A stretch of 64,000 bases of DNA from Granulicella mallensis MP5ACTX8 (GTDB taxonomy: Bacteria > Acidobacteriota > Terriglobia > Terriglobales > Acidobacteriaceae): contig NC_016631.1 in NCBI RefSeq assembly GCF_000178955.2, positions 4,774,001-4,838,000 on the forward strand, read 5' to 3'. Below the pieces are notes generated by a model. The model searched no databases. It saw nothing but the letters and a program-made list of their open reading frames with translations, and had not been told where the DNA came from. Each line of letters starts with the position of its first letter. Position 1 is the stretch's first letter. Shown here piece by piece: positions 39,794 through 55,815 of this stretch. Made by a program: the position numbers and the translations under genes.

Positions 39794-41410
39794 TTAGCGG
39801 CAGCAGGTGTTTGTGTCGAAGACAGGAGATGCAGTAGCGGTGGTTCCGTTGTAAAGGACAAGGTTGCCGTCATTTTGCATGTCGAGAACCTGGCCTAACA
39901 GCCCTGCAGTGTTCGACTGAAAGAGGACCTTGCCATTGTTGTCGTAGAGGACGAAGTTGCCATCGGCCAGCAGGGTCGCTTCAGACGGAATATGCCCTAC
40001 GGTTCCTGAAGACCAGAGCGGGGTATTGCCGAAGTAGAGAACCAGATTGCCGTCGTCCTGCAGGTAGAGCATGAAGCGTCCATCGCAGGAGACGAGCGGG
40101 TGATCGGGGATCAGGCCTTCGCCCGTCAGTAGCGCCGTGCAGGACGTCGTAGGAGCTTTGATGGGTGGAATCCCTGTAGGAACGAAGAGGCCGAGATTCA
40201 CTGCGTTTGCAATGGCCTGATGTCCCGCATCGTTCGGGTGGAGGTGGTCGCCGCTGTCGAAGGACGCGCGATATTGCAGAGGCATGTTGGGATCGTGGGT
40301 TGCCGTATCCTGATCGACGATGCCGTCGCAGCCGCTGGTCGGGCTGAGGAAGAAAGCGTTGATCTGCTCGCGAATCGCCTCAGCGCCGGTGGACCATTGC
40401 GCTGCCGGTCGTCCCCCATTCGGCGTAAGTGTCGAGCAGTAGAACTTGATGCCGGCGGCATGCCCCTGGCTCATGATCTGCTGAACACCGGCTACCAGGG
40501 AGTTGAAACTGGGTTCCTGATCGGAGGGCAGATTGCTGAGATCGTTGATGATGTCGTCGGAGACGATGACCCACTTCACATTGGGCTGCGAGAGCACATC
40601 CCGGGAGAATCTGGTGATCATGGCCTGCCCCGCACCATCGCGCAGAAGGTCGTTGCCGCTGATCCCCTCGTTGATCACGCCTATGGGAAGGCCCGCAGTG
40701 TTCAAACGTGCCGAGAGGTCATTGGTCCAGCGGTGATTGGTGTTGAAGGTGGAGTTGAGACCATCCGTAATCGACGCTCCAATAGCAACGACAGCACCGG
40801 GCGATGCAGCATTTTGAACATCGACATTCGTTAGATAAAAGTAGCTGCTAAAGGCACTGGTGGTGTTGATAGTCGAACTGCCACTCACGTCTCCAGCCGC
40901 CAGAAACATCCCGTTCTGGTTTCCGTTCTGATGAAACGTCACGTTTGCACTGTCTACGGCCGTGGGAAAGTACATGCTGACCATGAGGTCTTCCTGCGGG
41001 GTAGTCACGAATGCGATCGAATCGCTGGCTAGCGTCTGCCCTGCCGGGACTGTGACGGAGGTGAAGCCACCAAAGGTTACGACATGGTCGGTACCAGGAA
41101 TCGTCGACGAAGTAGGACCGCCGTTAGAGTCGACGACGGCCTGCGCAAGGTGGACATCTCGCACGGTAAGGGGCTGCTGACCGAAGGTGTTGGAGATTTG
41201 AACACGAGCGGCCGATCCACCGATGCTTGTGTGAAGAATCTGCCGCAACGTCTGCTGAGCAAGCCCATTGAAGCTTGCATCGATCGTTGATTGTTGAGGA
41301 GCCACGGCCCAGGTTCCAGTCCACGGCACGGAGCTTTGGGCATGGGCAGCGGAGATCATTCCCAGAGACAAGAAAAGGATGGCGCCTGCGGAGTACTTTT
41401 TAATATTCAT
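39794..41410 (-). CDS. secreted SGNH/GDSL hydrolase with C-terminal bulb-type lectin domain
   Basis: 538 residues. A signal peptide (ILFLSLGMISAAHAQ) precedes an N-terminal beta-rich segment (about 30-195). The SGNH hydrolase core has Ser213 in VVAIGASITDGLNS, the Asn-containing block VIVSDDIINDLSNL, and the Asp388-x-x-His391 pair in SGDHLHPNDAG. The last 110 residues are a B-lectin domain with three sugar-site repeats of the QxDxNxVxY type: LQDDGNLVLYFG, LLADGNFVLYDN and MQNDGNLVLYNG. It probably removes acetyl or other acyl groups from a glycan while the lectin part binds mannose-type sugars. The fusion is unusual; plant-type B-lectins are mostly found in other contexts. It is the distal gene of the carbohydrate region and ends at a hairpin shared with ssb. 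Confidence 0.85.
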   Translation of the reverse strand: MNIKKYSAGAILFLSLGMISAAHAQSSVPWTGTWAVAPQQSTIDASFNGLAQQTLRQILHTSIGGSAARVQISNTFGQQPLTVRDVHLAQAVVDSNGGPTSSTIPGTDHVVTFGGFTSVTVPAGQTLASDSIAFVTTPQEDLMVSMYFPTAVDSANVTFHQNGNQNGMFLAAGDVSGSSTINTTSAFSSYFYLTNVDVQNAASPGAVVAIGASITDGLNSTFNTNHRWTNDLSARLNTAGLPIGVINEGISGNDLLRDGAGQAMITRFSRDVLSQPNVKWVIVSDDIINDLSNLPSDQEPSFNSLVAGVQQIMSQGHAAGIKFYCSTLTPNGGRPAAQWSTGAEAIREQINAFFLSPTSGCDGIVDQDTATHDPNMPLQYRASFDSGDHLHPNDAGHQAIANAVNLGLFVPTGIPPIKAPTTSCTALLTGEGLIPDHPLVSCDGRFMLYLQDDGNLVLYFGNTPLWSSGTVGHIPSEATLLADGNFVLYDNNGKVLFQSNTAGLLGQVLDMQNDGNLVLYNGTTATASPVFDTNTCCR

Positions 41411-41620: not shown

Positions 41621-44455
41621 CTAATTAACACCGAAGGATTCGAGGTTGAATAAGTAGTTGCCACCATCCCCTGTAAAGACAAGATAGAGAGTATGAGTTC
41701 CACTTGTGGGAGTCAGGTTGCACGTAACCGGCGACCATGTCTGCCAGTCGCCATTGACAGGAACCGCGCAAGTTGCTGCCAACGTGCCCGAGGGGCTATC
41801 GAGGTGAACCTCGATGTTGCCTCCAGAGCCTGCGCTGGCTACCCTTGCCGTAAAGTGAGTCGCGCCGGTCAGAGTAACGTTGTTATAGGCCGCGTAGCTG
41901 CCGGCTAAGATGAAGCCCATATCCTCTCCGCCCTCGCTGCTACTTTCCAGCTGCTCCCCTCCAGAGATCTTGCTATAGCTGGAAGCCTGGATCGTGGGGG
42001 TAAAAGCAAACCACTCCACATTGAACAGCGCACCGTCCCCGCCGGTATAAACGAGATAGACCGTGTGAGTTCCAGTGGTGTTGCTTATAGGGCACGATAC
42101 GGTCGTCCAGCTCTGCCAGTCGCCTGTAACCGGAACGGTGCAGGTTCCTGCCAACGTTCCAGTGGGGTTGTCGAGGCGAACTTGAATGTTGCCTCCCAGC
42201 CCTGCGCTGGCTACCCGGGCTCTAAAGGTCGTCAGATTGGAAAGGTTGACATTGCTGTAGAACGTATAAGAGCCGTTGAGAATATTTCCGACATCAAGAT
42301 TGCCTTCACTGCTGCTCTCGGTGCTCACACCCCCGGCCGAACCGGTGAAGCTTGAGGCTTGAGTCGGTGTAACGGTTGGAGTGACACCGAGGTAGGGAGC
42401 AGTCAGCGGGTCACCGACCACGATGCCCTCCCAACCAAGATAGGGAGTGCCGGCGTAAAAGCTCTCCGCCAGAGTGTAGCCCGACTGATAGTGATCGATC
42501 TGGAACGTGATTCCCTCGATGCCATCCAGGCAGGGTTCATTCGTGTAGCCCTCTGCTCCGGTCAATCCATTGGCGATCAGATCCGGCATGTGAGATTGTC
42601 CGTCGAAGATGTTCCCCAGGTCCTGTCCGCCGTCGCTGCTGGTTTCCAGGCTGGCATCGCCAGACAGAACGTTGTAACTCGCGACTTCGATCAGGTTGGT
42701 TCCACCGACAAAGTTGAACCACTCCAGGTTATAGAGATCTCCTCCGCCACCCGTGAAGACCAGGTAGACGTTATGGATTCCACTTGCCCCTTTCAACTTG
42801 CACGTCTGTGTAGTCCAGGTTTGCCAGCCGCCTGTGGATGGAACGGTGCAGGTTCCGATCAACGTTCCCGTAGGGCTGTCGACATGAATCTGAAGGGAGC
42901 CTCCAGCTCCCGCACTGGCAACCCGCGCCGTGAAAGAAGTCATGCCGTTCAGGTTGATGCTGTTATAGACCGCATTGGCCCCATTCGTGATGAAGCCCAG
43001 GTCCTGCGGGCCTTCGCTGCTCACTTCGAGTTGTTCGCCACCCGACAAACCGTTATAGCTGGCGGCCTCAATCACGCTGGCAGCCCCCTGGAACTGAATC
43101 CATTCGATGTTGTAAAGATTGCCTCCAAATCCATTGGGAATAAACGTCAGATAGACGTTATGAACTCCACTGACGCTGGCCGAGAGGGCGCAGGTCATGG
43201 TCTTCCAGGTTTGCCAACCGCCGGTCTGGGGGACGTTACAGCTCCCTATAATCTGCCCGCTGGGATTATCGATGCGGATCTGGAATACGTGAAGCTTGTC
43301 ATCCGTGTTGGCGTTGGCGACCCTTGCTTTAAGGGACGTCATTCCGGTCAGATTGATACTGTTGAAGCCCACATACTGCCCGATAAAGCTCACCATACTC
43401 GTTGAGACATAGGTATTGGAGATCGCTCCCGGCGCGAAAGACAGCGATTCGTAGGCTTCGCTGTTGTAGTTCCCATCATTGCTACCCCAGGAATAGTAGC
43501 CGAGCAAGTTACTCTGGTTGCCAACGAAGGTGCTGGTAACGGTTGCGTTTGTGGTGAGCCCGCTTGCTTGAAGGTCACCGGCTGCATGCATCAGGTCCGC
43601 ATTGCCATGATCGAACGACTCCTCCATGAGGACATCCGTGCTGGGAGTCGCTGGAGGGAACTGGGTCTTATCGGCAATGCCATCGCCGGCATCCGCGTCG
43701 ATCAAGATGGAGCCGGTCAAGGGAGTCTGCATGGCAGCGATCGAACGATCCACCAAGGCCATGGCGTCTGACTGGATATAACCATCCAGACGTGTGACCA
43801 GATAGCCGCCAAAGGCCTCATGCGTAAAGGGAACCGTCGAGTTGTAATACTTATTGATCCAGGCGACGCCTTGAGCGCCTGATCCTGTGATCGAAGCCTG
43901 TACATTGCCGTTCGCAGTGGAGTAACCCAGCGCCGCCAGATAGCTATCGAGCGAGGGCTGAAAATCCTGAGGAGTTTGGCCCGCGGGTTCAGAACCAGTA
44001 GGGGCATTGTCGATGCGAATCGGGATACCCTTCGTTAGAACAATAAAGTTAATCCCCGGATGAGCTGACAGATAAGTACTGATGGGATTCTGAATCTGGG
44101 ACTTGTAGTTACTGAGGGAAATCGTCTCATTGATTGAATTCAAAGCCGAGTCCTGGCAGCTGACCGCAAGGACGTTGGTAACTCCGCGCTGCGCTGCGTA
44201 GTACATTCCAATGGCGGTAGAAGTCGCGCTGGCCGAGTTATAGACCAATAGCACTTCGCTCGGAGTTCTTTGTATTGGAGCGGCCTTCGCCTGGGCGACG
44301 AGGGCAAGCACGATGCCCGCATACAAGAATAAAGAGGCTATGCTTCTTAGTCCCGGGTAGAGATGAGCCCTGAACCTATTCTCACGTGGCGAAAAGATGT
44401 TGAAGCCGAATTTTGGCTTAGACTCAGATTTCTTATGCCGAATGACGTTACGCAT
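41621..44455 (-). CDS. TIGR03790 secreted protein split by and fused to CBM6-like modules
   Basis: 944 residues. After a membrane-targeting segment (about 37-58, SIASLFLYAGIVLALVAQ) the TIGR03790 domain starts with RTPSEVLLVYNSASATSTAI and runs to FAPGAISNTYVSTS (about 353). It resumes at about 619 with GQSHMPDLIANGLTGAEGYT and ends with LAESFYAGTPYLGWEGIVVG and DPLTAPY. Between these halves, and again at 700-944, are CBM6-like units with the repeated sequence EAASYNGLSGGEQLEVSSEG, TSFTARVASAGAGG, GTCTVPSTGGWQTWTT and HNVYLVFTGG. The canonical TIGR03790 domain is contiguous, so here about 265 residues (two units, permuted) are inserted at one loop. TIGR03790 has no known activity; the CBM6 units suggest binding to a polysaccharide outside the cell. 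It is encoded next to the SGNH-lectin gene and downstream of the GH89 operon. Confidence 0.85.
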   Translation of the reverse strand: MRNVIRHKKSESKPKFGFNIFSPRENRFRAHLYPGLRSIASLFLYAGIVLALVAQAKAAPIQRTPSEVLLVYNSASATSTAIGMYYAAQRGVTNVLAVSCQDSALNSINETISLSNYKSQIQNPISTYLSAHPGINFIVLTKGIPIRIDNAPTGSEPAGQTPQDFQPSLDSYLAALGYSTANGNVQASITGSGAQGVAWINKYYNSTVPFTHEAFGGYLVTRLDGYIQSDAMALVDRSIAAMQTPLTGSILIDADAGDGIADKTQFPPATPSTDVLMEESFDHGNADLMHAAGDLQASGLTTNATVTSTFVGNQSNLLGYYSWGSNDGNYNSEAYESLSFAPGAISNTYVSTSMVSFIGQYVGFNSINLTGMTSLKARVANANTDDKLHVFQIRIDNPSGQIIGSCNVPQTGGWQTWKTMTCALSASVSGVHNVYLTFIPNGFGGNLYNIEWIQFQGAASVIEAASYNGLSGGEQLEVSSEGPQDLGFITNGANAVYNSINLNGMTSFTARVASAGAGGSLQIHVDSPTGTLIGTCTVPSTGGWQTWTTQTCKLKGASGIHNVYLVFTGGGGDLYNLEWFNFVGGTNLIEVASYNVLSGDASLETSSDGGQDLGNIFDGQSHMPDLIANGLTGAEGYTNEPCLDGIEGITFQIDHYQSGYTLAESFYAGTPYLGWEGIVVGDPLTAPYLGVTPTVTPTQASSFTGSAGGVSTESSSEGNLDVGNILNGSYTFYSNVNLSNLTTFRARVASAGLGGNIQVRLDNPTGTLAGTCTVPVTGDWQSWTTVSCPISNTTGTHTVYLVYTGGDGALFNVEWFAFTPTIQASSYSKISGGEQLESSSEGGEDMGFILAGSYAAYNNVTLTGATHFTARVASAGSGGNIEVHLDSPSGTLAATCAVPVNGDWQTWSPVTCNLTPTSGTHTLYLVFTGDGGNYLFNLESFGVN

Positions 44456-44780
44456 TTCCCCTCACTTCACTGAAAGCATTTGGCCTGGCACCTGGATCGA
44501 ACAGGCGTAGGCAAGCTAGATTGCGGCGACAGATAGTCAGATTGACGGGGCCCTAACGTGTTAAACACTTTGGCTGAAGTTTTATTCCGATCTTTTTGTG
44601 AGTGCCAGCGGTAGCCTCTTGAGACCAGCCATGATTATCCCAGCGCAAAGTGAGGCCTGACCGCGTTGTTCATCGAATCTTCATTTCATCCCTTCTGAAG
44701 AGGAGAGGCCGAATTACGACACAAATAAAATGGCCGGACAGAGTTTCTCTGTCCGGCCATTTTGTCTTTGCTGTTGCGGG
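44456..44780. other. intergenic region with terminator
   Basis: 325 bp between the TonB receptor stop and the TIGR03790 start, both minus strand. It contains the 44728-44763 terminator; the rest is the probable TIGR03790 promoter region. No gene is seen. Confidence 0.5.
44728..44763 (-). terminator. strong terminator of the GH89 operon
   Basis: AAATGGCCGGACAGAG (44728-44743) and its complement (44747-44763 region) form a perfect stem of about 16 bp with a 3-nt loop and A/T runs on both sides, so it works in both directions. It lies directly after the TonB receptor stop (44781). Confidence 0.8.
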
Positions 44781-47700
44781 TTAGAAGGTGAGTTTCAAAG
44801 CAGCCTGACCAACTCGCGCGGGGATAGCCCCGGTTGAGGTGATCGTACCGAAGTTGGAGTCATCAGGATTGGAGTCCGGCTGACCGAAGCTGGGATGGTT
44901 GAGAGCGTTGAAGGCCTCGAAACGGAACTGCAGCCCGTAGCGCTCGTGAAACTGCCAGTTCTTCTGAACCCCCAGGTCCGCGGTGTAGATAGGAGCGCCC
45001 TGGATGAGGTACTTGGGTGAATTACCGGCAGTACCGGGCTTGTTGAGGGCGAAGGCCCCGGCGTTGAAGTAGTGGTTGAGCCAATTGGCCTTACCGCCGT
45101 GTCGGACCTGGAGAGGTTCGCCGGTAAGATCGGCGCGGTCCTGATAGACAAGGAAGCCGGACCGATTGTTGCCGCCTCCGCCGTTGACGGTAAACGGAGG
45201 ACCCGATTGCAGGGTGACCAGACCCGTCAGCGACCAGCCGCCGATGACGTTGCGCAAGACAGAGTTCAGGCTTTGGAACTTCGGAGCCTCGTAGGTAAAG
45301 TTGGTGACCGAGACCACCGGATAGTTGAGGCTCGACGGGCCGTGATCGTGGCCCACGTTATGAGGATCACTCACGCTGGACTCGAAGGAGGGATCTCCCG
45401 ATCCACCCACGTCAAAGGCATGCGACCAAGTGAAGTTGGACTGTACCTGGATACTATGCGAGAGACGCTTTTCGATGCCGACCTGCAGCGAGTTATAGCT
45501 TGAGGTTCCTCCGACCTCCACCTGGATGATCGAACCGAAGTTCGTCAGCCCACGTGAATCGCTTTGGAAGCCAGTAAACGCACCATTCGTAAACATTGGA
45601 CCGATGGGGACACCAGGATTCAATTCGACCGGCGTGGAGAGGTGATAGGTTTCGCTCCCCACATAGGCGATGTGGAGGGCGAGCGTATCGGTGAACTGTT
45701 GCTCCACAGACAGATTCCAGCTCTGCGCTACACCGAGGCGGAAGTTCTTCGGAAAGACTGCTCCGAGCTGCATGGGAAGAGTGAACGTAGAGTTAGCAGG
45801 AGGGCTCACACTCGGAGAGGCGAAGGGAGGAAATGGGCTCTGGCCGCCCGTAGCCGCGAAGCCACTCCACGGATGATCGAAGGAGATAGGAGTAGTGGTG
45901 GTGGCGTTGAGCGAAAAAGATGGATTGAAGGGCGCCGTGTCGTAGACATGGTTGTAACTTGCGTCTTCCAACGGTGTAGTGAACATGCCGAAGCCGGCAC
46001 GAATCGAGGTCTTCGGAGAAGCCTGGTACGCGATACCGATACGCGGCTCGAAGTACTTCCAGGACGTAGGCATAATTGCATTGTTGATACCCGCGTCACC
46101 CGGGAAGACTACACCTGCAGGAGCGTTGGGATAACGAGTGCTCTGCTGCCCGGGGATGTAGGCAGCGCCGCGTCCGCCGTCGATGCTGAGAGGGGTATAA
46201 GGATCCCAGCGCAGTCCGGCATTGATCGTCAGGTTAGGACGAAGCTTGTATTGGTCCTGAGCGTAATAACCGGTCATCCAACCACGTACGCTGCCGCTCT
46301 CTCCCGCGTTCTGCGAGAAGGTCTGGGCATCGCCGAGGAGAAAGTCCGAGAGGGTGAAGCCGGTGAAGGCGTTGGTAAAGCCAACATTCGGATTCGCTCC
46401 GGAGCTGGAGTTCTCATGCGTGTAGCGATGCAAGACATCCGCACCGAAGTACATGGTGTGCTTGCCGTGGGTATAGGTGACAGTGTCTGAGAAGCCCAGG
46501 TTCCGGCGCTTCGTGCTGTTGACCGCGCCGCTGAAGACGGAGAAGCCAAGAGCCCCTCCATAGATCGAATTGCCGTCGACTGCCGAGATACCACCGATAT
46601 AGCACGACCCGGCGGGATCGGAGACATCGACGAAGTTCGAGAGGCACTCCTGTTGACCGGTTTTACTGAAGAGCGGAGTTCCGGAACCGAAGTCAAAGGA
46701 CTGGTAGAAGACAGTAACGCTGTTCAGTAGATTTTGATTAATCGTCCAGGAGTGATTGAAGGCGTCGTTGACGTAGATGCCGTGCAGTCCCTGAACACCC
46801 GCCAGCAGGTTGCCGGGGATGCCGATTCCGGGCTGGGTGAAGTTGTAGATGAAGTTGCGCACAAAGACACGCTGGCGATCGTTAATAGCGTAGTCGATGC
46901 GTCCGGTCCCCTCATCATAGCTGGTACGCGCCTTGGGCCCGACGAAGTTCGTTTTGCCAGTGGCAGGATCGCCGCCGAGCGGCAGAGAGGCTGCAATCGC
47001 GAGCGCACCGGGACTGAACAACTTGGGGTCGATCTGGTTGCGCTTGCCATTGATCGTCGCGAAGGGCGCGTTGAGATCCGGGACAATCGCACTGAAGTCA
47101 CCGTTGAGCATCGCGGCGGTCGGGGTGTAGGTGGTGTTCTGCGTCGAGGTAGTGCTGGTGCGCGTTCCTTGATAGTTGGCAAAGAAGAAGAGCTTGTCCT
47201 TAATGATGGGGCCGCCGAGATAGCCGCCGAACTGACTGCGCTTCAACGGATCAACCTGGTGGCTGAAGTAATTCGCAGCATTGAGCACGTCATTGCGGAG
47301 AAACTCAAAAGCGCCGCCGTGAAAGCTGTTGGTGCCGCCTTTGCTCTGGATGCTGACGACCGCGCCTGGCGAGAAGCCATAGCGCGCGTCGAAGTTGTTC
47401 GAGATGACACGAAACTCCTGGGTGGCATCGGCATTCGGGAACGGCGCCGCAAGAAGCGCGTAGTAGTCCATGTTCGTGACGCCGTCGAGCAGATAGTACG
47501 TGCTTCCCTGCCGTCCGCCGCCCGCGGAGCCGCCGGACTGCGTGGGGAAAGAGTTCGTTGACGGCAAGGTGGAGGCTTGCGACTGCAGCTCATTAGTCAC
47601 GCCAGTCGTCAGGAAGACGAGACTCGAAGGATCGCGGCCGTTCAGCGGCAGCTCCTTGATGGAAGCCTCGTTGACGACCGCGCTGATCTCAGCCGTAGTC

Positions 47701-48089
47701 GCATTGATCAGGGTGGGATTGGAGCTTACGGTGACGGTCTCATCCGCTCCTCCAGGCTTGAGAACGATGTTGACCGTCGCACTCTGGCCGATCGTGAGAA
47801 CAATATTGGTCTGCAGGGTGTCAGCAAAGCCGGTCGCTGTCGAGGAGATCTTATAGGGGCCGGCGGGCAACGAAGGCACGGTGTACTCACCCTGCGCGTT
47901 CGAGGTCGTCTTCGTCGCGGCATTGGTCCCAGTGTTGGTGATCGTAATCTGAGCCTGGGGGATGGCTGCGCCGCTTGAGTCGGTGACAACGCCGGTTAAC
48001 CGGGCGCCTGTGACCTGCGCCTCAAGCCTGATGCCCAGACAGAGCAGGATAAGGGCTAGTGGAAAGATAATGCGTGAGAGTTGTTTCAT
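44781..48089 (-). CDS. Oar-like TonB-dependent outer-membrane receptor
   Basis: 1102 residues. The start at 48089 has GAAAGGAG close upstream. A signal peptide is followed by a carboxypeptidase-regulatory-like domain (about 28-115; GVVTDSSGAAIPQAQITITN, GEYTVPSLPAGPYKISSTAT). A plug domain follows with VNEASIKELPLNGRDPSSLV and YYLLDGVTNMDYY, then a long beta-barrel (about 300-1102) ending in RVGQAALKLTF, an outer-membrane barrel signature. There is no SusD partner. In Acidobacteriota such receptors often import plant or microbial glycans. It is the last gene of the operon with GH89, HGSNAT-like and GH2 genes (gaps of 28, 28 and 72 bp), so it probably takes up the glycan or products of that pathway. 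Confidence 0.92.
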   Translation of the reverse strand: MKQLSRIIFPLALILLCLGIRLEAQVTGARLTGVVTDSSGAAIPQAQITITNTGTNAATKTTSNAQGEYTVPSLPAGPYKISSTATGFADTLQTNIVLTIGQSATVNIVLKPGGADETVTVSSNPTLINATTAEISAVVNEASIKELPLNGRDPSSLVFLTTGVTNELQSQASTLPSTNSFPTQSGGSAGGGRQGSTYYLLDGVTNMDYYALLAAPFPNADATQEFRVISNNFDARYGFSPGAVVSIQSKGGTNSFHGGAFEFLRNDVLNAANYFSHQVDPLKRSQFGGYLGGPIIKDKLFFFANYQGTRTSTTSTQNTTYTPTAAMLNGDFSAIVPDLNAPFATINGKRNQIDPKLFSPGALAIAASLPLGGDPATGKTNFVGPKARTSYDEGTGRIDYAINDRQRVFVRNFIYNFTQPGIGIPGNLLAGVQGLHGIYVNDAFNHSWTINQNLLNSVTVFYQSFDFGSGTPLFSKTGQQECLSNFVDVSDPAGSCYIGGISAVDGNSIYGGALGFSVFSGAVNSTKRRNLGFSDTVTYTHGKHTMYFGADVLHRYTHENSSSGANPNVGFTNAFTGFTLSDFLLGDAQTFSQNAGESGSVRGWMTGYYAQDQYKLRPNLTINAGLRWDPYTPLSIDGGRGAAYIPGQQSTRYPNAPAGVVFPGDAGINNAIMPTSWKYFEPRIGIAYQASPKTSIRAGFGMFTTPLEDASYNHVYDTAPFNPSFSLNATTTTPISFDHPWSGFAATGGQSPFPPFASPSVSPPANSTFTLPMQLGAVFPKNFRLGVAQSWNLSVEQQFTDTLALHIAYVGSETYHLSTPVELNPGVPIGPMFTNGAFTGFQSDSRGLTNFGSIIQVEVGGTSSYNSLQVGIEKRLSHSIQVQSNFTWSHAFDVGGSGDPSFESSVSDPHNVGHDHGPSSLNYPVVSVTNFTYEAPKFQSLNSVLRNVIGGWSLTGLVTLQSGPPFTVNGGGGNNRSGFLVYQDRADLTGEPLQVRHGGKANWLNHYFNAGAFALNKPGTAGNSPKYLIQGAPIYTADLGVQKNWQFHERYGLQFRFEAFNALNHPSFGQPDSNPDDSNFGTITSTGAIPARVGQAALKLTF

Positions 48090-48161
48090 AGAGTGCTCCT
48101 TTCGCCCGCAGATACGAGCCGATCTATTTGGAGAAAATGAGTTAAAGAAATTTGGAAAAGC

Positions 48162-50513
48162 TCAGCTAAAAGGAGGATGGTTGTCTGTTTCGGCGATGAT
48201 CTTGAACGTCAATGTCTTCACTCCGAAGTGAGGATGTGTTGCCTTGAGCGTCGCGATGCCAGGCTCTCCGGTCGACCGGATCCACACCGCGCTTCTGCCT
48301 CCGCTGAGCACGGCAATCGGCTCACCGAGAAGCACTGCCGGTCCATCGAGCGAGAGAGTAATGGGATCGAAACAGAGCGGTCGAGGTGCGCCATACTCAT
48401 CCGTAACGCGCAATACAACACGCGTTGCATCCGCACCGTCCGCGATCAGTTCCGAATCGTCGGCAAGAATCTCGAAGACCTGGTCGATTCCCTTTCCCGA
48501 GAAGCTTTTGGAGATCACCTGCGTGCCTTTGACATAGCCGTCGAGGCGCAGGTCACCCCAGTCGTCGTTGCCATCCGGAAGCGTGAGATAGAACGGCGGA
48601 TAGGCGAGATGCGGAAACTCCTCATGCTCCGGCCGCAGATCGATGATGTGATGCCAGACTTTGTCGCGGCCGATGAAGGCGCGAATCTCATCGCAGTTCG
48701 AGGAGATGATTCCCTTCCTGAAGCCTGATGGCTCGTCGCTCATCGCGAAGTGAAAGCCAGGCTCGAGGACGGGTTCCTCCGTTGGCGGGCACTGCGACTT
48801 GAAGAATCCAGCCGCGGGCTTAGCCTCACGGAAGATGTCCATCACGCCGTGGTAGCAGATATGGTCGCCGGAGCCGAAGTCCGCGTGGGTCTGGTAGTCG
48901 AACCCGCACCAGCCCAGACCGCCGGAGTATCCAGCCTGGCTGTTCAGCTGGTTGAAGATGCGAGCATAGCGGAGAATGTGCTCCTGGTTGATCGCGTTGC
49001 TGTCCCACGGGCGAACAGGAAACTCCGCGCCGACAAACTCGGTGTTGAGATACAGAGGATGATTGGGTGCTTTGAGCGGGAACTGAAAGTCGTTCATCGA
49101 GAAGACGTCTTCCAGCAGCTCCGACTCCTGGAAGTAGCGCACACCGGTGGTTTGGCGAGAGGGGTCCAGCTCACGCGCCAGCGCATTCACCTTCACGTAC
49201 AGATCGTGAAAGTCGCGCGACTCATTGATGCGAATGCTCCAGAGAACAATCGATGGATGGTTCCAGTCACGGCGAATCATGCGGCGCGTGTTATCGAGGT
49301 AGCGCTCACGCCAGAGTTCGCTATCGCCTACATGCTGCCATCCTGGAGTCTCGTCAATGACTAGCAGGCCAAGCTCATCGCAGGCATCGAGAAAATGATG
49401 TGAGGGAGGATAGTGCGAGCAGCGCACGATGTTGCACTTGAGCTGCTCTTTGAGAATGGTCGCGTCACGGCGCTGCACTCGTCTGGGCATCGCCGCACCC
49501 GCGAAAGGAAAGGTCTGATGGCGATTGAGCCCACGCAGTTTGATGATCTCTCCGTTGAGAGAGAAGCCTGCAGGAGTAAATCGGGCCTCACGCAAGCCGA
49601 ACCGCGTCTCTTGTTCGTCCACGATCTGCCCAACGGCAAGCAGGCGAACGCGCACCGAATAGAGCTTTGGATCGTGTAGCTGCCAGAGCTTTAGCCCCTC
49701 AACTCCAGCCATCGAAACTGTTGCACGGCCTGCGGAGAGTTCAGAGGACGACAAGCGCTGCCTGCGCTTCGTGATCGTACCAGCGTCGTTGAAGAGCTCG
49801 ACTTCGAAGGTATCTGGTTTCGTCTTTAGCGTTGTGTTCGCAGAATCTAAAAAGACCTCTATCTCTACTCGCGGCTTTGGAGTAAGCACCTCAGAGCAGG
49901 TAACGCGAAGGTCCTCAATCGAGGTTCCGCCGGTGGTCCGCAGGGAGACCCCGCGATAGATACCGCCGAAGGTGAGATAGTCCACCTCGTAGCCGAAGGG
50001 AGGAACCTCCGGCAACTCGCGCGAGTCCACCTCGACACTGAGGACATTCTCGCCCTCCTGATCGAGGTGCTGCGTGAGTTCGAAGGAGAAGGGTGTGAAG
50101 CCCCCAAAGTACTCACCCAGCAGCGTGCCATTCAGGTACACCTTCGACGCCACCATGACGCCCTCGAAGTCAGCGAAGACCCGCCTGTCCGGCTCCCCTG
50201 CGGGAAGAGTGAAGTGACGGCGGTAGAGTGAAACAAACTGATAGCTGTTCTGATCGGCGTTGTGCCACGGAACGAAGACGTTGCTGTGCGGAAGAGCGAC
50301 GTGCTCAAAGCCTGAGTCATCGAAACCGCGCAGATGGCCGTTAGCCGGAACGCTGCGACTCCAGAGCCATCCCTCCACCAGCGGATAGATCCGGCGCGTC
50401 GAATGCGCTGGGTGTTCCGGCTTCGCAACGAGCGCGAACCCCTGGCGCGCGACAGCCCCGCCCAGGATGCAGCCACCACTCGTTTTGAGAAAGCTTCTTC
50501 GACTCAGTGTCAT
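48162..50513 (-). CDS. GH2 family glycoside hydrolase, Tat-exported
   Basis: 783 residues with a twin-arginine signal MTLSRRSFLKTSGGCILGGA. The sugar-binding domain (about 40-200), immunoglobulin-like domain (about 200-310) and TIM barrel (about 310-600) are in GH2 order. The family's conserved LRGLNRHQTFPFAGAAMPRR occurs near 326. The acid/base Glu431 lies in IVLWSIRINESRDF and the nucleophile is probably Glu492 in YLNTEFVGAEFP. After the barrel come two beta domains (about 600-783). GH2 includes beta-galactosidases, beta-glucuronidases and beta-mannosidases; no motif decides between these. The operon context (alpha-N-acetylglucosaminidase and acetyltransferase) makes beta-glucuronidase or beta-galactosidase likely. 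It acts in the periplasm after export. Confidence 0.88.
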   Translation of the reverse strand: MTLSRRSFLKTSGGCILGGAVARQGFALVAKPEHPAHSTRRIYPLVEGWLWSRSVPANGHLRGFDDSGFEHVALPHSNVFVPWHNADQNSYQFVSLYRRHFTLPAGEPDRRVFADFEGVMVASKVYLNGTLLGEYFGGFTPFSFELTQHLDQEGENVLSVEVDSRELPEVPPFGYEVDYLTFGGIYRGVSLRTTGGTSIEDLRVTCSEVLTPKPRVEIEVFLDSANTTLKTKPDTFEVELFNDAGTITKRRQRLSSSELSAGRATVSMAGVEGLKLWQLHDPKLYSVRVRLLAVGQIVDEQETRFGLREARFTPAGFSLNGEIIKLRGLNRHQTFPFAGAAMPRRVQRRDATILKEQLKCNIVRCSHYPPSHHFLDACDELGLLVIDETPGWQHVGDSELWRERYLDNTRRMIRRDWNHPSIVLWSIRINESRDFHDLYVKVNALARELDPSRQTTGVRYFQESELLEDVFSMNDFQFPLKAPNHPLYLNTEFVGAEFPVRPWDSNAINQEHILRYARIFNQLNSQAGYSGGLGWCGFDYQTHADFGSGDHICYHGVMDIFREAKPAAGFFKSQCPPTEEPVLEPGFHFAMSDEPSGFRKGIISSNCDEIRAFIGRDKVWHHIIDLRPEHEEFPHLAYPPFYLTLPDGNDDWGDLRLDGYVKGTQVISKSFSGKGIDQVFEILADDSELIADGADATRVVLRVTDEYGAPRPLCFDPITLSLDGPAVLLGEPIAVLSGGRSAVWIRSTGEPGIATLKATHPHFGVKTLTFKIIAETDNHPPFS

Positions 50514-50541
50514 GTTTTCTTACGTCTTCCCGTGCGATTTG

Positions 50542-51693
50542 CTAGAGCTTGATAAAGATGCGTTTGCGGTAGAGCAGCCATGCGGGGACGTAGCACACGG
50601 CGACAAAGAGAAGTGAGTAGATAAGTGAACCGATCGCAGGCGTACCCAGGTGAATGAAGTAGTGCGAGTAGACGTACACCTGGAAGCTTTGCGTCTGATT
50701 GACCTTGAAGACAGCGACGGCTGACGACAGCAGCTCGGAGATGACATACACCGTAATGGCATTCGTGCCGAACACCAGCAGCGGATAGGTCCAGCGGCCG
50801 CGCAGTTGGCGGATCTCGATGACGTAGTAGGCGACGGCGAGAAGCAGAATGCTGAGGCCCCCGGCATAGAGCACGTAAGAGCTGGTCCAGAGCTTCTTGT
50901 TGATCGGGAAACTCTGAGACCAGAGCAAACCCGCAACGGCAAGAGCGATACCCGCTCCGAACAGACCCATGAGCTTCTGCCCCGCAGGACGCGCCTGCTT
51001 GATCCAGGCTCCAGCCAGAAGGCCGAGGATCGTCGAAGCGAACGCCGGGATGTCGCTGAGCAAACCTTCGGGATCGCGTGTCTTCTCAAAGAGGCGATGC
51101 GGAAAGATATGGCGATCGAGCCATGCAACCAGGTTGATGTCGTGATCGAGCAGCGGAAAATCTCTGCCGGGTATTCCGTGGCCGGGCACCGGAACGAAGC
51201 GCAGCAGCACCCAATAACCGATCACCGCTGCAAAGAACAGAACAACACGCGGTGCGATGCGATCGGTCACAAGTTGCAGCAGCGCGGCGAGCAGATAGCA
51301 GACCGCAATGCGCTGCAGAACCCCATAGATGCGCAAAGTGTCGAGGTGGAAGTAGGGGAAACCGTTTACAACCAGCCCGAAGAAGATGAGCAGCGCGAAC
51401 CGTCGTCCAATGCTCGTGAGCATAACGGTGTTGCTCGTAGCCTTGGCACGATGCGCGCTGAAGGAGAGCACCATCGAAATGCCCATGATGAAGAGGAAGG
51501 TGGGAAAGACGAGATCGGTCGGCGTAAAGCCGTTCCATAGCGAGTGGTTCAGCGCGCGATAGGCGAGGTCATTATTGCCGTTGTTGTTCACGAGAATCAT
51601 GAACGCGACCGTGAGGCCACGCAGGACATCGATCGACAACAGCCGCGAGCTCGGCCTGGTATTCAGAAACGGTGTTGCGGTCGCGCTAGACAT
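50542..51693 (-). CDS. HGSNAT-like membrane acetyltransferase (DUF5009/NagX type)
   Basis: 383 residues with about ten membrane helices. The start has AAAGGAGGG upstream. The N-terminal SRLLSIDVLRGLTVAFMILV and the block NHSLWNGFTPTDLVFPTFLF then IMGISMVLS match the lysosomal heparan-alpha-glucosaminide N-acetyltransferase (HGSNAT) family; the His of NHSLWNG corresponds to the histidine known to carry the acetyl group. The human enzyme moves acetyl from cytosolic acetyl-CoA to terminal glucosamine on the other side of the membrane. In bacteria this family is also called NagX. Here it lies 28 bp from an alpha-N-acetylglucosaminidase gene and 28 bp from a GH2 gene, an arrangement that suggests acetylation of exposed glucosamine ends of an imported glycan. 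Confidence 0.85.
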   Translation of the reverse strand: MSSATATPFLNTRPSSRLLSIDVLRGLTVAFMILVNNNGNNDLAYRALNHSLWNGFTPTDLVFPTFLFIMGISMVLSFSAHRAKATSNTVMLTSIGRRFALLIFFGLVVNGFPYFHLDTLRIYGVLQRIAVCYLLAALLQLVTDRIAPRVVLFFAAVIGYWVLLRFVPVPGHGIPGRDFPLLDHDINLVAWLDRHIFPHRLFEKTRDPEGLLSDIPAFASTILGLLAGAWIKQARPAGQKLMGLFGAGIALAVAGLLWSQSFPINKKLWTSSYVLYAGGLSILLLAVAYYVIEIRQLRGRWTYPLLVFGTNAITVYVISELLSSAVAVFKVNQTQSFQVYVYSHYFIHLGTPAIGSLIYSLLFVAVCYVPAWLLYRKRIFIKL

Positions 51694-51721
51694 ACGTCAT
51701 TCCCTCCTTTCACAAAAATTC

Positions 51722-53986
51722 TTACAAGCTCTTCACTTCAGACAGCAGCGCATGCGACTCAGCGACAAGATCGGCGACCGGCAGCGGTTTACTGGGGCGA
51801 TAGGGAGCAGACAGCCAGGTCTGCTGCCAAAGGTCGAGCGAGAAGGAACGACCTGTGTGGCGGCTTTCGAACCAGGCCTCCCAGCGGGCCGCGTAGTAGT
51901 CGCGAATGAGACCAGACCAGACGCGCGAGGCGTAATCCGAAAGCTCCGGCCAACCCCAGGTTGTGATCAGCAGCCGGGCGTTCTCGTCGTAGAAGGTCGC
52001 CTCATCGTCTGTCTTCGCATAAGCGCGCGTCGCCTGCATCCAGGTTTCGAGGCGGCGGTCTGGCCTGAGATTCATCAAGCCATCGATGCGGCGCATCCAC
52101 TCCACGGCACGGGCAGCATGCGCAACAGCATCTTCGTCCTGCTTGGCATCGCCAGCCTGCACAGCCAGGGCAAGAGCCTCATCCACTCTGCCGCCAACAG
52201 CCTGTGAGACGAACTCAATGAGGTCGTTGCGGTAGAGCTCGCTCTTCGCCAGTTGGGGAGCACAGGAAAGAAAGAGCTCGACCGCACGCTGAAAGGTAGG
52301 GCCTGCATCCACCGAAGCCGCGATAGGGTGCACACTCGGCTCTGCCTGCCACGCTTGCTTGGTCATCCAGATGTGCGAGCTGTAGGCACTCTTGAGCAGC
52401 AACTCCCATGCCTGCTGCATCGCAGGAGGGCAGTCGCCATAGCGCGAGCGACAATAGGCCGGAATCCACGTCGCGAGGTCGATGGCTTCCGACTGCCATC
52501 CGGCATCGGTCATCAGCTCGTAGACCACCTCGTTGTTCTCGATGCCTTCGGGGCACATGCCCCAGCCGACGAGATTGCCCCGTTCCGGGCTGGCGAGGAC
52601 AGTCGATGGCTCCGTCGCCATCAGCTTCAGGTTGCCCTTGATATTGTTGTTGCCGCCAAAGGTGTGGGCCATACCGTTGATCCACGGCTTGCCGAAGAAC
52701 GCCTTCTGGAGCTTCCATTGGCCGGGCAGATACTTGCCCTGGACCGACGGCGCAAGGTCGTTGGCGTAGTCGATGATGAGCATCCGGTCGTTCGGAATGC
52801 CGCGCAGCAGGGCCTCGACGGACTCCTTATTCCAGAAGTCGGAGTCGTACACGAAGAGCCAGCCCTGCATCACCCAGGTTCCCTTGGGATCGCCGGCCTG
52901 GATACTCTCGAAGACGGTTCGTCCAAAGCGCTCAAGGTCTTCGTAGCGATGATCCTCCCGCACCGGGACCTCGAGCTCATTGAAGGTGTCGGCCAGGTAG
53001 TACTCGACCTCGCCGTACTCCGCCTTGTACTCCTCGATAAACTTCTTCCCGATCTGGCGATACAGCTCCTGCTGGCCCGGGTGGAGGATGAAGGTACGCG
53101 TGCTGCGCGGGATGGTCTTGAACTCCTTGCGGAGCCAGAGCAGGGTGAAGGTCTCGACCTCCGGATGGAGGCGCTTGAAGCCCTGCGGCACAAAGCCGGC
53201 GAAGGCAGGCGCTACGGGCTTCATGCCGAGCTCCCGCATCCGGTTCAGAACCTGGCGCTGGAGAATCCGCTTCTCTTCCATGAAATGCTGCGGCAGAGGA
53301 CCGGCGAAATGATTGATATTGCCCATGCGATGCCATGGCAGCTGCGCCGGGCCCACGGAGAAGGTGTCGATCTCCGCCTCGGTAAGGCCGAGCGAGAGCC
53401 ATACCCGGTTCCAAATGACCTCCTGGCCCTCCAGGGCCAGCGGCATCGTAATGCCGTGCAGCGCCATCCAGTCGAGCTCGCGCTCCCAGCGCGGCCAGTC
53501 CCAGAAGGCCATCGTGTACCCGTAGGTGCACGGGTTCAGATACTGGACGAACTTGTACGGGCAGACGACACGATGGTGTTCCACGTCAGGAAGCCGGGCA
53601 GGTAGATCAAGATGGCGGCCACTCCAGGCGATCATCGCCTGGCAATGCTCCCGCAGATAGATATAGATCCCACGACACAGACTGACGCCGCTGCTACCCG
53701 CAACGGCCACCCTGCCTCCGCTGGCGGAGAGCTCATAGACTTCATGGCCGTCCACCGCGGGAAGCAGATGCAGGTCAAACTCAGCCGCCCGGGAGCCGAG
53801 TTGGCGCTGCAGAACACCCCGGCAGGCTTCGATCGCCGTCTCGGCGGACGATCTGGGCGGCCCCATCGGCGGCTCTAGTTTAGGAGAAGACGAGGGGGCC
53901 GGGGTCTCGCCAACCGCAGCAAGCCCTCCATGAGCCAGGGCAGCCCCTGCACACGAAAGCTCAATAAATTTACGTCGCGTCCACAT
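51722..53986 (-). CDS. alpha-N-acetylglucosaminidase (GH89), NAGLU homologue
   Basis: 754 residues from the ATG at 53986, with GGAG 6 nt upstream. A Tat-like signal MWTRRKFIELSCAGAALAHG starts the protein. The N-terminal small domain (40-140) is followed by the TIM barrel with CPYKFVQYLNPCTYGYTMAF then WDWPRWERELDWMALHGITM and PLALEGQEVIWNRVWLSLGL. The two catalytic Glu residues correspond to Glu337 in YLADTFNELEVP and Glu480 in GMCPEGIENNEVVYEL, as in human NAGLU. A helical C-terminal domain follows (about 540-754). GH89 enzymes remove terminal alpha-linked GlcNAc from heparan-type or mucin-type chains with retention. It is the first gene of a four-gene operon; just upstream of it are three direct repeats. 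Confidence 0.93.
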   Translation of the reverse strand: MWTRRKFIELSCAGAALAHGGLAAVGETPAPSSSPKLEPPMGPPRSSAETAIEACRGVLQRQLGSRAAEFDLHLLPAVDGHEVYELSASGGRVAVAGSSGVSLCRGIYIYLREHCQAMIAWSGRHLDLPARLPDVEHHRVVCPYKFVQYLNPCTYGYTMAFWDWPRWERELDWMALHGITMPLALEGQEVIWNRVWLSLGLTEAEIDTFSVGPAQLPWHRMGNINHFAGPLPQHFMEEKRILQRQVLNRMRELGMKPVAPAFAGFVPQGFKRLHPEVETFTLLWLRKEFKTIPRSTRTFILHPGQQELYRQIGKKFIEEYKAEYGEVEYYLADTFNELEVPVREDHRYEDLERFGRTVFESIQAGDPKGTWVMQGWLFVYDSDFWNKESVEALLRGIPNDRMLIIDYANDLAPSVQGKYLPGQWKLQKAFFGKPWINGMAHTFGGNNNIKGNLKLMATEPSTVLASPERGNLVGWGMCPEGIENNEVVYELMTDAGWQSEAIDLATWIPAYCRSRYGDCPPAMQQAWELLLKSAYSSHIWMTKQAWQAEPSVHPIAASVDAGPTFQRAVELFLSCAPQLAKSELYRNDLIEFVSQAVGGRVDEALALAVQAGDAKQDEDAVAHAARAVEWMRRIDGLMNLRPDRRLETWMQATRAYAKTDDEATFYDENARLLITTWGWPELSDYASRVWSGLIRDYYAARWEAWFESRHTGRSFSLDLWQQTWLSAPYRPSKPLPVADLVAESHALLSEVKSL

Positions 53987-54038: not shown

Positions 54039-54089
54039 TTTTCACCGTACCGGCTCCGTTTTCACCGTGAAACGCGATGTTTTCGCACA
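54039..54089. promoter_or_regulatory. three direct repeats upstream of the GH89 operon, possible operator
   Basis: TTTTCACCGT occurs at 54039-54048 and 54059-54068, exactly 20 bp apart, and a degenerate third copy TTTTCGCACA is at 54080-54089, 21 bp further. On the minus strand (operon direction) the unit reads ACGGTGAAAA. The block ends 53 bp upstream of the GH89 start. Repeats one or two helical turns apart suggest tandem binding of a winged-helix regulator. Confidence 0.55.
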
Positions 54090-54501: not shown

Positions 54502-55815
54502 TCAAGGCCGGATGATTCTGTACGCTACGACCCGAGCCTCGGGGGCGTTGCCACCGACGCTCGAGGTTTCGAGCAGCACTTCAAAGTAGGGCATCCTGTC
54601 ATGAGTGGCCCCTATCCGCTGGGCGAAGTTTCTAAACTCCGTCAGGCTGAAGGGGAAATCCGCAGCAGACTCCGTACCTGCCATGCCCGTTCCCTGAAAC
54701 AGAAGAGCGTCGCCGTTCCCTTCGATCCCTGGCAGAAAGGCGAGGACCCCATAGCTGCGTCTCGCCCCGTCCGTGACGGTGTCCCGGTACAGCGCAGATT
54801 CGCCTGACTGGGGATGCTTATTGACGACGTAGCCTTCCGAGGCCTTCCAGTCCCAGTTGACGTCGAAGTTGAGCCGGTCCTTGAACAGCCCGACCCAGGG
54901 ATTTGCCGCGACACCGCCAATCAGGATGACGTTGCGGCTCTTCAAGTCGTCGATCCGCAGCACGCGGGCGTTACGGGTCTCCACGTCGGCCTTGACCGCC
55001 TGGGGCAGTCTGGCCAACCGCAGCGCCAGGTTGAGGTCCGCCGAGCTCGTCAACTGGTGCGACGCAAACCATTCGGCGCTGAGCGAAATTCCATTGACGC
55101 TCGGCAGATTCGCCTTGCTCAGATAGGTGCCGCTGAGATACTCGTCCAATTGAACCGGGCTCTTCGTAAAGTCCTGAAAGAGAACGAGTGCGTCGTCCGA
55201 AGGAACGATTAATGTTGGACTGGCCGAGGTAAAGAGCTCCGACCAGAGGGCATCGGCGGCGGCCCCAGGCTGAGGGCTCCGAGGACGCAGGAAAAAACCA
55301 ACCACCCCAATCGCCACAGCAAGTGCCGTGAGTCCCGCCAGAAGGAGCACGCGCCGCGGACCGCGCTTCTGCGCAGGAGCAGTGGCGGCCGAAGCGACAG
55401 ACGAAGATTCAGCCGAAGCTGCTTCCGCATTTGGCTTCGGCTGGACGGCTACCCCCTGCACCACCTCCCGGGGTTCGAAGACAGGCACGTAGCCGCCCTT
55501 GGGGATGGTGACGATCAGCACACTGTGCGGGCACTCGTGCTCGAAGTACTCTTCAAGCCGCTGGCGCAAAAGGCGAGCCTGGCTCCGGACAATACTGTCA
55601 TCCGAGGCGCTATAGGCAGCCGACCGTCCGAAGACATGGATTCCGATCTGCTGCTCGTTAATCTCCCGAGCACGGCCCTCAAACAGCCACAGGCAGATGA
55701 ATTCGAGGAACTTCGTAAGCCGGGGAGACTTGGCAAATGTCCGAGAGGCGGCGATCTGCCGCAGTAACAGCATCCGCTCGTCGTCTTGATACCGTGAACG
55801 TTCGCCTGCCGACAA
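54502..55815 (-). CDS. membrane-anchored winged-helix regulator with periplasmic domain
   Basis: 437 residues if it starts at the TTG at 55815; an ATG at 55773 is equally possible. The N-terminal part (about 20-115) is a winged helix of the type SPRLTKFLEFICLWLFEGRA, REINEQQIGIHVFGRSAAYS, DSIVRSQARLLRQRLEEYFE and LIVTIPKGGYVPVF, seen in many Acidobacteriota regulators. A Pro/Ala/Ser linker leads to one membrane helix (about 155-176, RVLLLAGLTALAVAIGVVGF). The C-terminal 250 residues are probably periplasmic and contain SASPTLIVPSDDALVLFQDF and VETRNARVLRIDDLKSRNVI. A membrane-tethered, CadC-like regulator is suggested. It lies upstream of the GH89 operon on the same strand, with the direct repeats between, and probably controls it. 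The ligand is unknown. Confidence 0.7.
   Translation of the reverse strand: MSAGERSRYQDDERMLLLRQIAASRTFAKSPRLTKFLEFICLWLFEGRAREINEQQIGIHVFGRSAAYSASDDSIVRSQARLLRQRLEEYFEHECPHSVLIVTIPKGGYVPVFEPREVVQGVAVQPKPNAEAASAESSSVASAATAPAQKRGPRRVLLLAGLTALAVAIGVVGFFLRPRSPQPGAAADALWSELFTSASPTLIVPSDDALVLFQDFTKSPVQLDEYLSGTYLSKANLPSVNGISLSAEWFASHQLTSSADLNLALRLARLPQAVKADVETRNARVLRIDDLKSRNVILIGGVAANPWVGLFKDRLNFDVNWDWKASEGYVVNKHPQSGESALYRDTVTDGARRSYGVLAFLPGIEGNGDALLFQGTGMAGTESAADFPFSLTEFRNFAQRIGATHDRMPYFEVLLETSSVGGNAPEARVVAYRIIRP

Follow-up and report, generated by a model that had tools for sequence, protein, structure and literature searches.

Why would a single bacterial operon join an alpha-N-acetylglucosaminidase of glycoside hydrolase (GH) family 89, a membrane acetyltransferase resembling human HGSNAT, a GH2 enzyme and an Oar-like outer-membrane receptor? 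The question is raised by four genes of Granulicella mallensis MP5ACTX8, which lie in the 64,000-nucleotide stretch of DNA analyzed here (NC_016631.1, positions 4,774,001 to 4,838,000, on a single contig of 6,237,577 bases; hereafter the window). The operon is real, well bounded and conserved, and its component parts are already known; the point of interest is the recurrence in bacteria of an acetyltransferase-glycosidase pair, composed of GH89 and a protein of the type known as NagX. These two proteins are very probably functionally coupled, and we lean slightly toward a role of the operon as a periplasmic cassette that would dismantle a galactose-bearing alpha-glucosaminide via prior acetylation.

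The GH89 and NagX-type proteins

The GH89 protein scored above the Pfam cut-offs for the N-terminal, barrel and C-terminal NAGLU domains (77.9, 413 and 159.6 bits; cut-offs 28.3, 25.5 and 25), and is by family a predicted alpha-N-acetylglucosaminidase. Its E337 and E480 align with residues 316 and 446 of human NAGLU (counted on the 4xwh alignment), which we take to be the catalytic pair, and both positions were Glu in 61 of 61 GH89 rows, in line with the initial annotation of a GH89 enzyme carrying both catalytic residues. It is 97% identical to that of Granulicella mallensis X5P3.

The acetyltransferase was placed in the HGSNAT family (PF07786, TmAT superfamily) by its HGSNAT_cat score (42.6 bits, cut-off 22) and by the fold of the predicted model. 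The histidine block described for it from the sequence was also recovered, as H50 aligns with H297 of HGSNAT, named as the catalytic histidine in PMC9007349 (this and the other papers cited here are drawn on in excerpt). H50 and a DxxR motif (D22, R25) were kept in all 62 NagX rows. When compared to the equivalog model built around NagX SO_3504 (NF046061), the window protein reached 176.7 bits, under the curated cut-off of 480. That proteins of this type are instead transporters of N-acetylglucosamine (GlcNAc) or oligosaccharides, without acetyltransferase function, is highly improbable in our view, even though an excerpt of PMC6252331 calls NagX a transporter and PMC9007349 mentions distant kinship to a putative transporter of N-acetylmuramic acid. 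Seven NagX-type matches are encoded by the genome itself, and three of the others, when inspected, had no GH89 nearby.

Recurrence of the GH89-NagX pair

The pairing was followed in two overlapping samples that share genomes, a family sample of 200 genomes and a phylum sample of 396, with adjacency counts that ignore kinship. GH89 was found in 28 genomes of the family sample and NagX in 131. The 33 GH89 rows corresponded to 31 loci, once a G043 fragment and a G066 row, the second part of a gene already counted, were dropped. NagX adjoined 17 of these, comprising 7 of the 11 loci of this sample in clade A, to which the window belongs, and 10 of 20 in clade B, whose GH89 enzymes are 25–36% identical to that of the window. 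In the phylum sample, NagX adjoined 20 of 27 strong GH89 matches (29 before the weak matches L187 and L188 were dropped). Among 80 named loci, NagX lay directly downstream on the same strand in 23, of which 8 belong to Acidobacteriota and 15 to Pseudomonadota, the latter including Xanthomonas, Asticcacaulis, Rhizomicrobium and Rheinheimera; one clade B locus (L048) has the reversed order, with NagX first. No fusion of GH89 and HGSNAT domains was found in the best 120 of 1700 matches.

In a NagX tree of 62 rows, the ten clade A partners formed one clade (support 100/100), and forcing the ten clade B partners together cost 245 log-likelihood units (p 7e-14). A quick, midpoint-rooted GH89 tree, supported by the SH-like approximate likelihood ratio test (SH-aLRT) only, separated clades A and B (SH-aLRT 100 and 96). 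Linkage changed at least six times among 41 acidobacterial NagX rows. The simplest reading of these phylogenies is that the pair was assembled repeatedly; since the count of changes pools gains and losses, a single ancient pairing, followed by losses and exchange of partners, may also underlie the pattern.

Several clade B pairs have further carbohydrate-related neighbors: those of L051, L053 and L197 are flanked by a PfkB sugar kinase and a sugar-transport protein, and others by a xylosidase-like GH39 (L054, 11435-13039) or a GH127 enzyme of arabinofuranosidase type (L061, 3098-4942). Two GH89 genes stand side by side in 11 of the 80 named loci (L077, L080, L087-L090, L093, L094, L099, L122 and L124), and those with a phylum shown in the title are Bacteroidota.

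Literature searches combining GH89 with NagX, HGSNAT with GH89, or the full name of HGSNAT with polysaccharide utilization gave no joint report among the matches listed, and one combining Granulicella with GH89 found nothing, the searches mostly covering papers outside subscription journals.

Conservation and architecture of the operon

From clade A, beyond the family sample too, 11 distinct loci were tabulated, window included, with GH89 at least 67% identical to that of the window; the table leaves out L194 as well as L062, which comes from the window's own species. Loss of the GH89 and HGSNAT-type neighborhood in relatives had been named initially as a finding that would speak against the proposed operon, and the two proved to be adjacent in 10 of 11 loci (exception G194), so that this objection falls away. 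The receptor was present in all 11 and an orthologous GH2 in 8. The parts of the expected four-gene order thus recur; the exact order GH89-NagX-GH2-receptor is confined to two loci, the window and L064, and the genes are otherwise shuffled (GH89-NagX-receptor-GH2 in three, GH89-NagX-receptor in three, GH89-NagX-GH2 with a divergent receptor in two and GH89-GH2-receptor in one). The RR and F of the Tat-type (twin-arginine) start of GH89 were invariant in 11 of 11 clade A enzymes; RRxF was found near the start in only three of the 20 clade B loci.

All four open reading frames were recovered as annotated, with intergenic gaps of 28, 28 and 72 bp, and the strong terminator reported after the last gene corresponds to a hairpin with a folding energy of -34 kcal/mol (z -7.8; Table 1). 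The promoter scan gave one sigma-70-like site only, below the shuffle mean. The description of the last gene as an Oar-like TonB receptor agrees with its OMP_b-brl_4 (646 bits, cut-off 30) and CarboxypepD_reg (76, cut-off 32) domains; TonB_dep_Rec_b-barrel reached only 21 bits (cut-off 27), and the search for solved structural relatives returned none at E 0.001.

The initial annotation missed a regulator gene and a candidate operator, which lie just upstream of its coordinates. The predicted regulator is OmpR/CadC-like, with a Trans_reg_C domain under the cut-off and no solved relative by sequence at a meaningful E, and it was conserved in 10 of 10 tabulated loci that could be judged (L064 is cut by the contig end). 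The operator was conserved among related loci as well, which supports common regulation of the whole gene set, within the limits of what sharing an operator can tell.

Table 1 Features of the operon and its upstream region, in window positions
Feature	Position	Strand	Characteristics
Oar-like outer-membrane receptor, 1102 aa	44781..48089	minus	CarboxypepD_reg and OMP_b-brl_4
GH2 enzyme, beta-galactosidase-like, 783 aa	48162..50513	minus	Tat-type signal MTLSRRSFLK; acid/base E431, nucleophile E492
HGSNAT-like/NagX-type membrane acetyltransferase	50542..51693	minus	Pfam HGSNAT_cat
GH89 alpha-N-acetylglucosaminidase (predicted), NAGLU type, 754 aa	51722..53986	minus	Tat-type signal MWTRRKF; catalytic E337 and E480
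Intrinsic terminator past the receptor gene	44727..44763	minus	hairpin
Candidate direct-repeat operator	54040..54068	minus	two ACGGTGAAA boxes 20 bp apart, upstream of GH89
Membrane regulator	54502..55815	minus	winged helix of OmpR type, a single membrane helix (about 153-178) and a periplasmic domain; start codon (TTG) tentative

The first gene beyond the terminator (41621-44455) encodes a 944-residue TIGR03790-family protein with CBM6/CBM35 modules. A GDSL-lipase protein whose B-lectin domain is weak is encoded at 39794-41410. A GH95 catalytic-domain match (53.9 bits, with a weak DUF5703_N) is encoded 7 kb upstream of the operon (61120-63483).

The GH2 enzyme

The assignment to GH2 stands, based on Glyco_hydro_2_C (100 bits, cut-off 21), the sugar-binding, sandwich and barrel domains and the acid/base Glu. 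The proposed beta-glucuronidase specificity is weakened: the best solved relatives were 5euv and 5ldr, entries named beta-D-galactosidase and presumably originating from Paracoccus (512 bits, full length), against 133 (7kgz) and 125 bits (6mvg) for entries named beta-glucuronidase. An N-x-K motif marks beta-glucuronidases, and the motif of E. coli UidA (N566, K568; confirmed in the UidA gene) was absent from all 8 GH2 orthologues; on this and on the scores we rejected the beta-glucuronidase reading. The enzyme is a likely beta-galactosidase, though not a proven one, as it remained under the cut-off of every NCBIfam equivalog, including the GalA beta-galactosidase (NF041462, 257 bits, cut-off 900). 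The acid/base E431 was conserved in 16 of 16 aligned GH2 sequences and the Tat-type RRxF start in all 8 orthologues. The UidA nucleophile column came out misplaced in the automatic alignment, and the nucleophile E492 was therefore taken from the 5euv alignment; the GH2 enzymes near the G101 locus (L037) and of L073 have no aligned nucleophile Glu and may be inactive or misaligned.

The initial interpretation thus keeps its conserved GH89 and HGSNAT-type neighbors and loses both the beta-glucuronidase and the fixed gene order. Of the two substrates it offered, heparosan or a GlcNAc-alpha-Gal chain, a glycan of GlcNAc and galactose fits better. Degradation of heparosan or an unsulfated heparan-like glycan, with GH2 as the glucuronidase, would rely on the enzyme pair known from heparan breakdown in lysosomes, and one Bacteroides GH89 cleaves heparosan oligosaccharides according to the available part of PMC8225759; with a galactosidase-like GH2 devoid of N-x-K it loses its second enzyme, and we regard it as very unlikely. 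The GH39 enzyme of L054, tried as an iduronidase lead, was rejected as being nearer to beta-xylosidases (306 bits) than to iduronidases (51 bits), which also speaks against heparosan.

GH2 enzymes of galactosidase type are not confined to clade A. Those next to or near the pair in Xanthomonas L108 and Asticcacaulis L116 pass the GalA cut-off of 900 (1039 and 1129 bits); L134 has a GH2 of the same type, and a GalA-like GH2 lies about 6 kb away in L055 (clade B); L040, a clade A locus without NagX, encodes GH35 and GH95.

Proposed mechanism and the role of NagX

In the favored scheme, the receptor would import an oligosaccharide across the outer membrane, and the Tat-exported GH2 would trim beta-galactose in the periplasm. 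The NagX/HGSNAT-type protein would then carry acetyl groups across the membrane, from acetyl-CoA in the cytosol to the exposed alpha-glucosamine, and the Tat-exported GH89, taken to require the acetyl group, would remove alpha-GlcNAc, which may be channeled into the general route (nagA lies elsewhere, at 2.04 Mb vs. 4.83 Mb for the operon). The upstream regulator might sense the glycan or a product and switch the operon on via the ACGGTGAAA repeat. What is observed are the genes, their spacing, the active-site residues, the HGSNAT model fold, the recurrent adjacency and the conserved signals and operator; from these we infer the enzyme activities, step order, sensing and substrate. That acetylation precedes cleavage we hold with a slight preference.

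Several observations weigh against this scheme. Of the 31 family GH89 loci, 14 lack NagX, and no adjacent pair was found in Bacteroidota among the 80 named loci; NagX was recovered in two of these (L077 and L078, 4-6 kb off on the opposite strand), and the bait is therefore able to detect Bacteroidota NagX. Within clade A, G194 has the full gene set yet no adjoining NagX, the orthologous GH2 is replaced by a different one at G101, and no GH2 was found at G174 and G098 among the 11 tabulated loci. In some Pseudomonadota, the surroundings of the pair resemble a general nag operon, in which free glucosamine could be the substrate of NagX: at L120 (Asticcacaulis), L108 (Xanthomonas) and L128 (Rheinheimera), the pair adjoins genes of the kinase, GntR/UTRA, SIS, amidohydrolase and MFS types, not every type being present at every locus. 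By arrangement, we take these to resemble nagK, nagR, nagB-II, nagA and nagP. The weak point is the acetylation step itself, since the excerpted text of PMC9007349 shows NagX at work in the use of free glucosamine, with fitness data from five bacteria and a model.

These data would suit a protein that only re-acetylates free periplasmic glucosamine for entry by the GlcNAc route, with the pair belonging to a general regulon for amino sugars and GH89 acting unaided on alpha-GlcNAc ends. We consider this rather unlikely for the operon, as the Acidobacteriaceae pair stands apart from nag-like genes in the tested neighbors and nagA is distant. Nor is NagX tied to GH20, which occurs in 157 of the 200 family genomes: among the matches listed, none lay within 30 kb of NagX (family sample, inspected by eye). 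As controls, 20 NagX genes without GH89 were taken in loci of 8-12 kb, shorter than most linked loci, and GH20 was not among the 25 commonest of 89 families in their 74 scanned neighbors (3 of 77 dropped), where FG-GAP and ASPIC repeats were the commonest (6 each). Baits for GH2, GH35 and GH95 matched 0 of these 20 loci, compared to GH2 in 9 of the 11 tabulated loci, that near G101 included.

Candidate substrates

Any single named substrate is improbable. One option is a GlcNAc-alpha-1,4-Gal-beta chain of mucin type, derived from amphibians or soil animals and attacked by GH89 and then GH2, with NagX secondary. It gains from the beta-galactosidase types that recur beside GH89, from the presence of the fucosidase family GH95 at L040, L116 and L136 and from the C. 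perfringens GH89 directed at GlcNAc-alpha-1,4-Gal, as stated in the excerpt of PMC3313936. It would leave NagX without a role, and the C. perfringens enzyme gave a lower score with the window GH89 (284 bits) than did human NAGLU (409 bits). The hosts are, moreover, bacteria of soil and plant litter, and we judge such a chain unlikely.

Head groups of plant glycosyl inositol phosphorylceramides (GIPCs) are a tentative candidate, and also an improbable one: galactose would be trimmed, GlcN(alpha1-4)GlcA acetylated and GlcNAc removed, a counterpart in terrestrial bacteria of the lysosomal acetylate-then-cleave step. This would suit the gene set because it gives a reason for NagX, a role for the beta-galactosidase and a match to plant-associated hosts. 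We know, to be sure, of no evidence that galactose sits directly on glucosamine in all GIPC heads, the four operon genes include no glucuronidase and no inositol gene, and GH115, an alpha-glucuronidase family considered for GlcA-inositol, was absent from the genome (GH67 and others were not searched). The heads are described in part of PMC8099651 as GlcNAc(alpha1-4)GlcA(alpha1-2)inositol, with GlcN or GlcNAc, and with galactose and arabinose in tobacco; GlcN is a likely deacetylation product according to an excerpt of PMC9113257. Enrichment of PI-PLC-C1 (17 of 28 GH89 genomes vs. 33 of 200 overall) was considered as a sign of GIPC use and given no weight, since PI-PLC-C1 and GH89 are concentrated in the same genera. 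One PI-PLC-C1 adjoins a NagX paralogue (G196:C22).

Comparison with known systems

NagX-type proteins are widespread, and their role has so far been read as acetylating free glucosamine; the recurrent pairing with GH89 suggests that some, like their counterpart in human lysosomes, may have glycan ends as their substrates. If so, small and soluble bacterial proteins could substitute for the enzymes of Sanfilippo types B and C, and the use of alpha-glucosaminides by soil bacteria, plant GIPC head groups being one example, would become easier to study. Should the GIPC reading hold, we know of no earlier enzymatic pathway for the sugar heads of this sphingolipid, which is very abundant in plants.

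The GH2 enzyme, a predicted beta-galactosidase, resembles the beta-D-galactosidase of 5euv/5ldr over its full length, with acid/base and nucleophile Glu aligned, and differs in falling under every NCBIfam equivalog cut-off. With Bacteroides GH89 polysaccharide utilization loci the operon shares a receptor, exo-glycosidases and a regulator, and it differs in its Oar-like receptor, its single-operator regulon and the NagX that the Bacteroidota among the 80 named loci lack beside GH89. The NagX of chitin/GlcNAc operons (Shewanella SO_3504 type; PMC9007349, in excerpt) is homologous over the whole length of the window protein, which on the other hand falls far under the equivalog cut-off and is tied to GH89 rather than, among the matches listed, to GH20. 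The human lysosomal step in which HGSNAT and then NAGLU act on heparan sulfate employs the same two families with catalytic residues kept, and the same sidedness is expected here, with acetyl-CoA in the cytosol and the sugar outside. Unlike in the lysosome, the setting is a bacterial periplasm and one operon, with a beta-galactosidase-like GH2 and with no sulfatase or lyase among its four genes.
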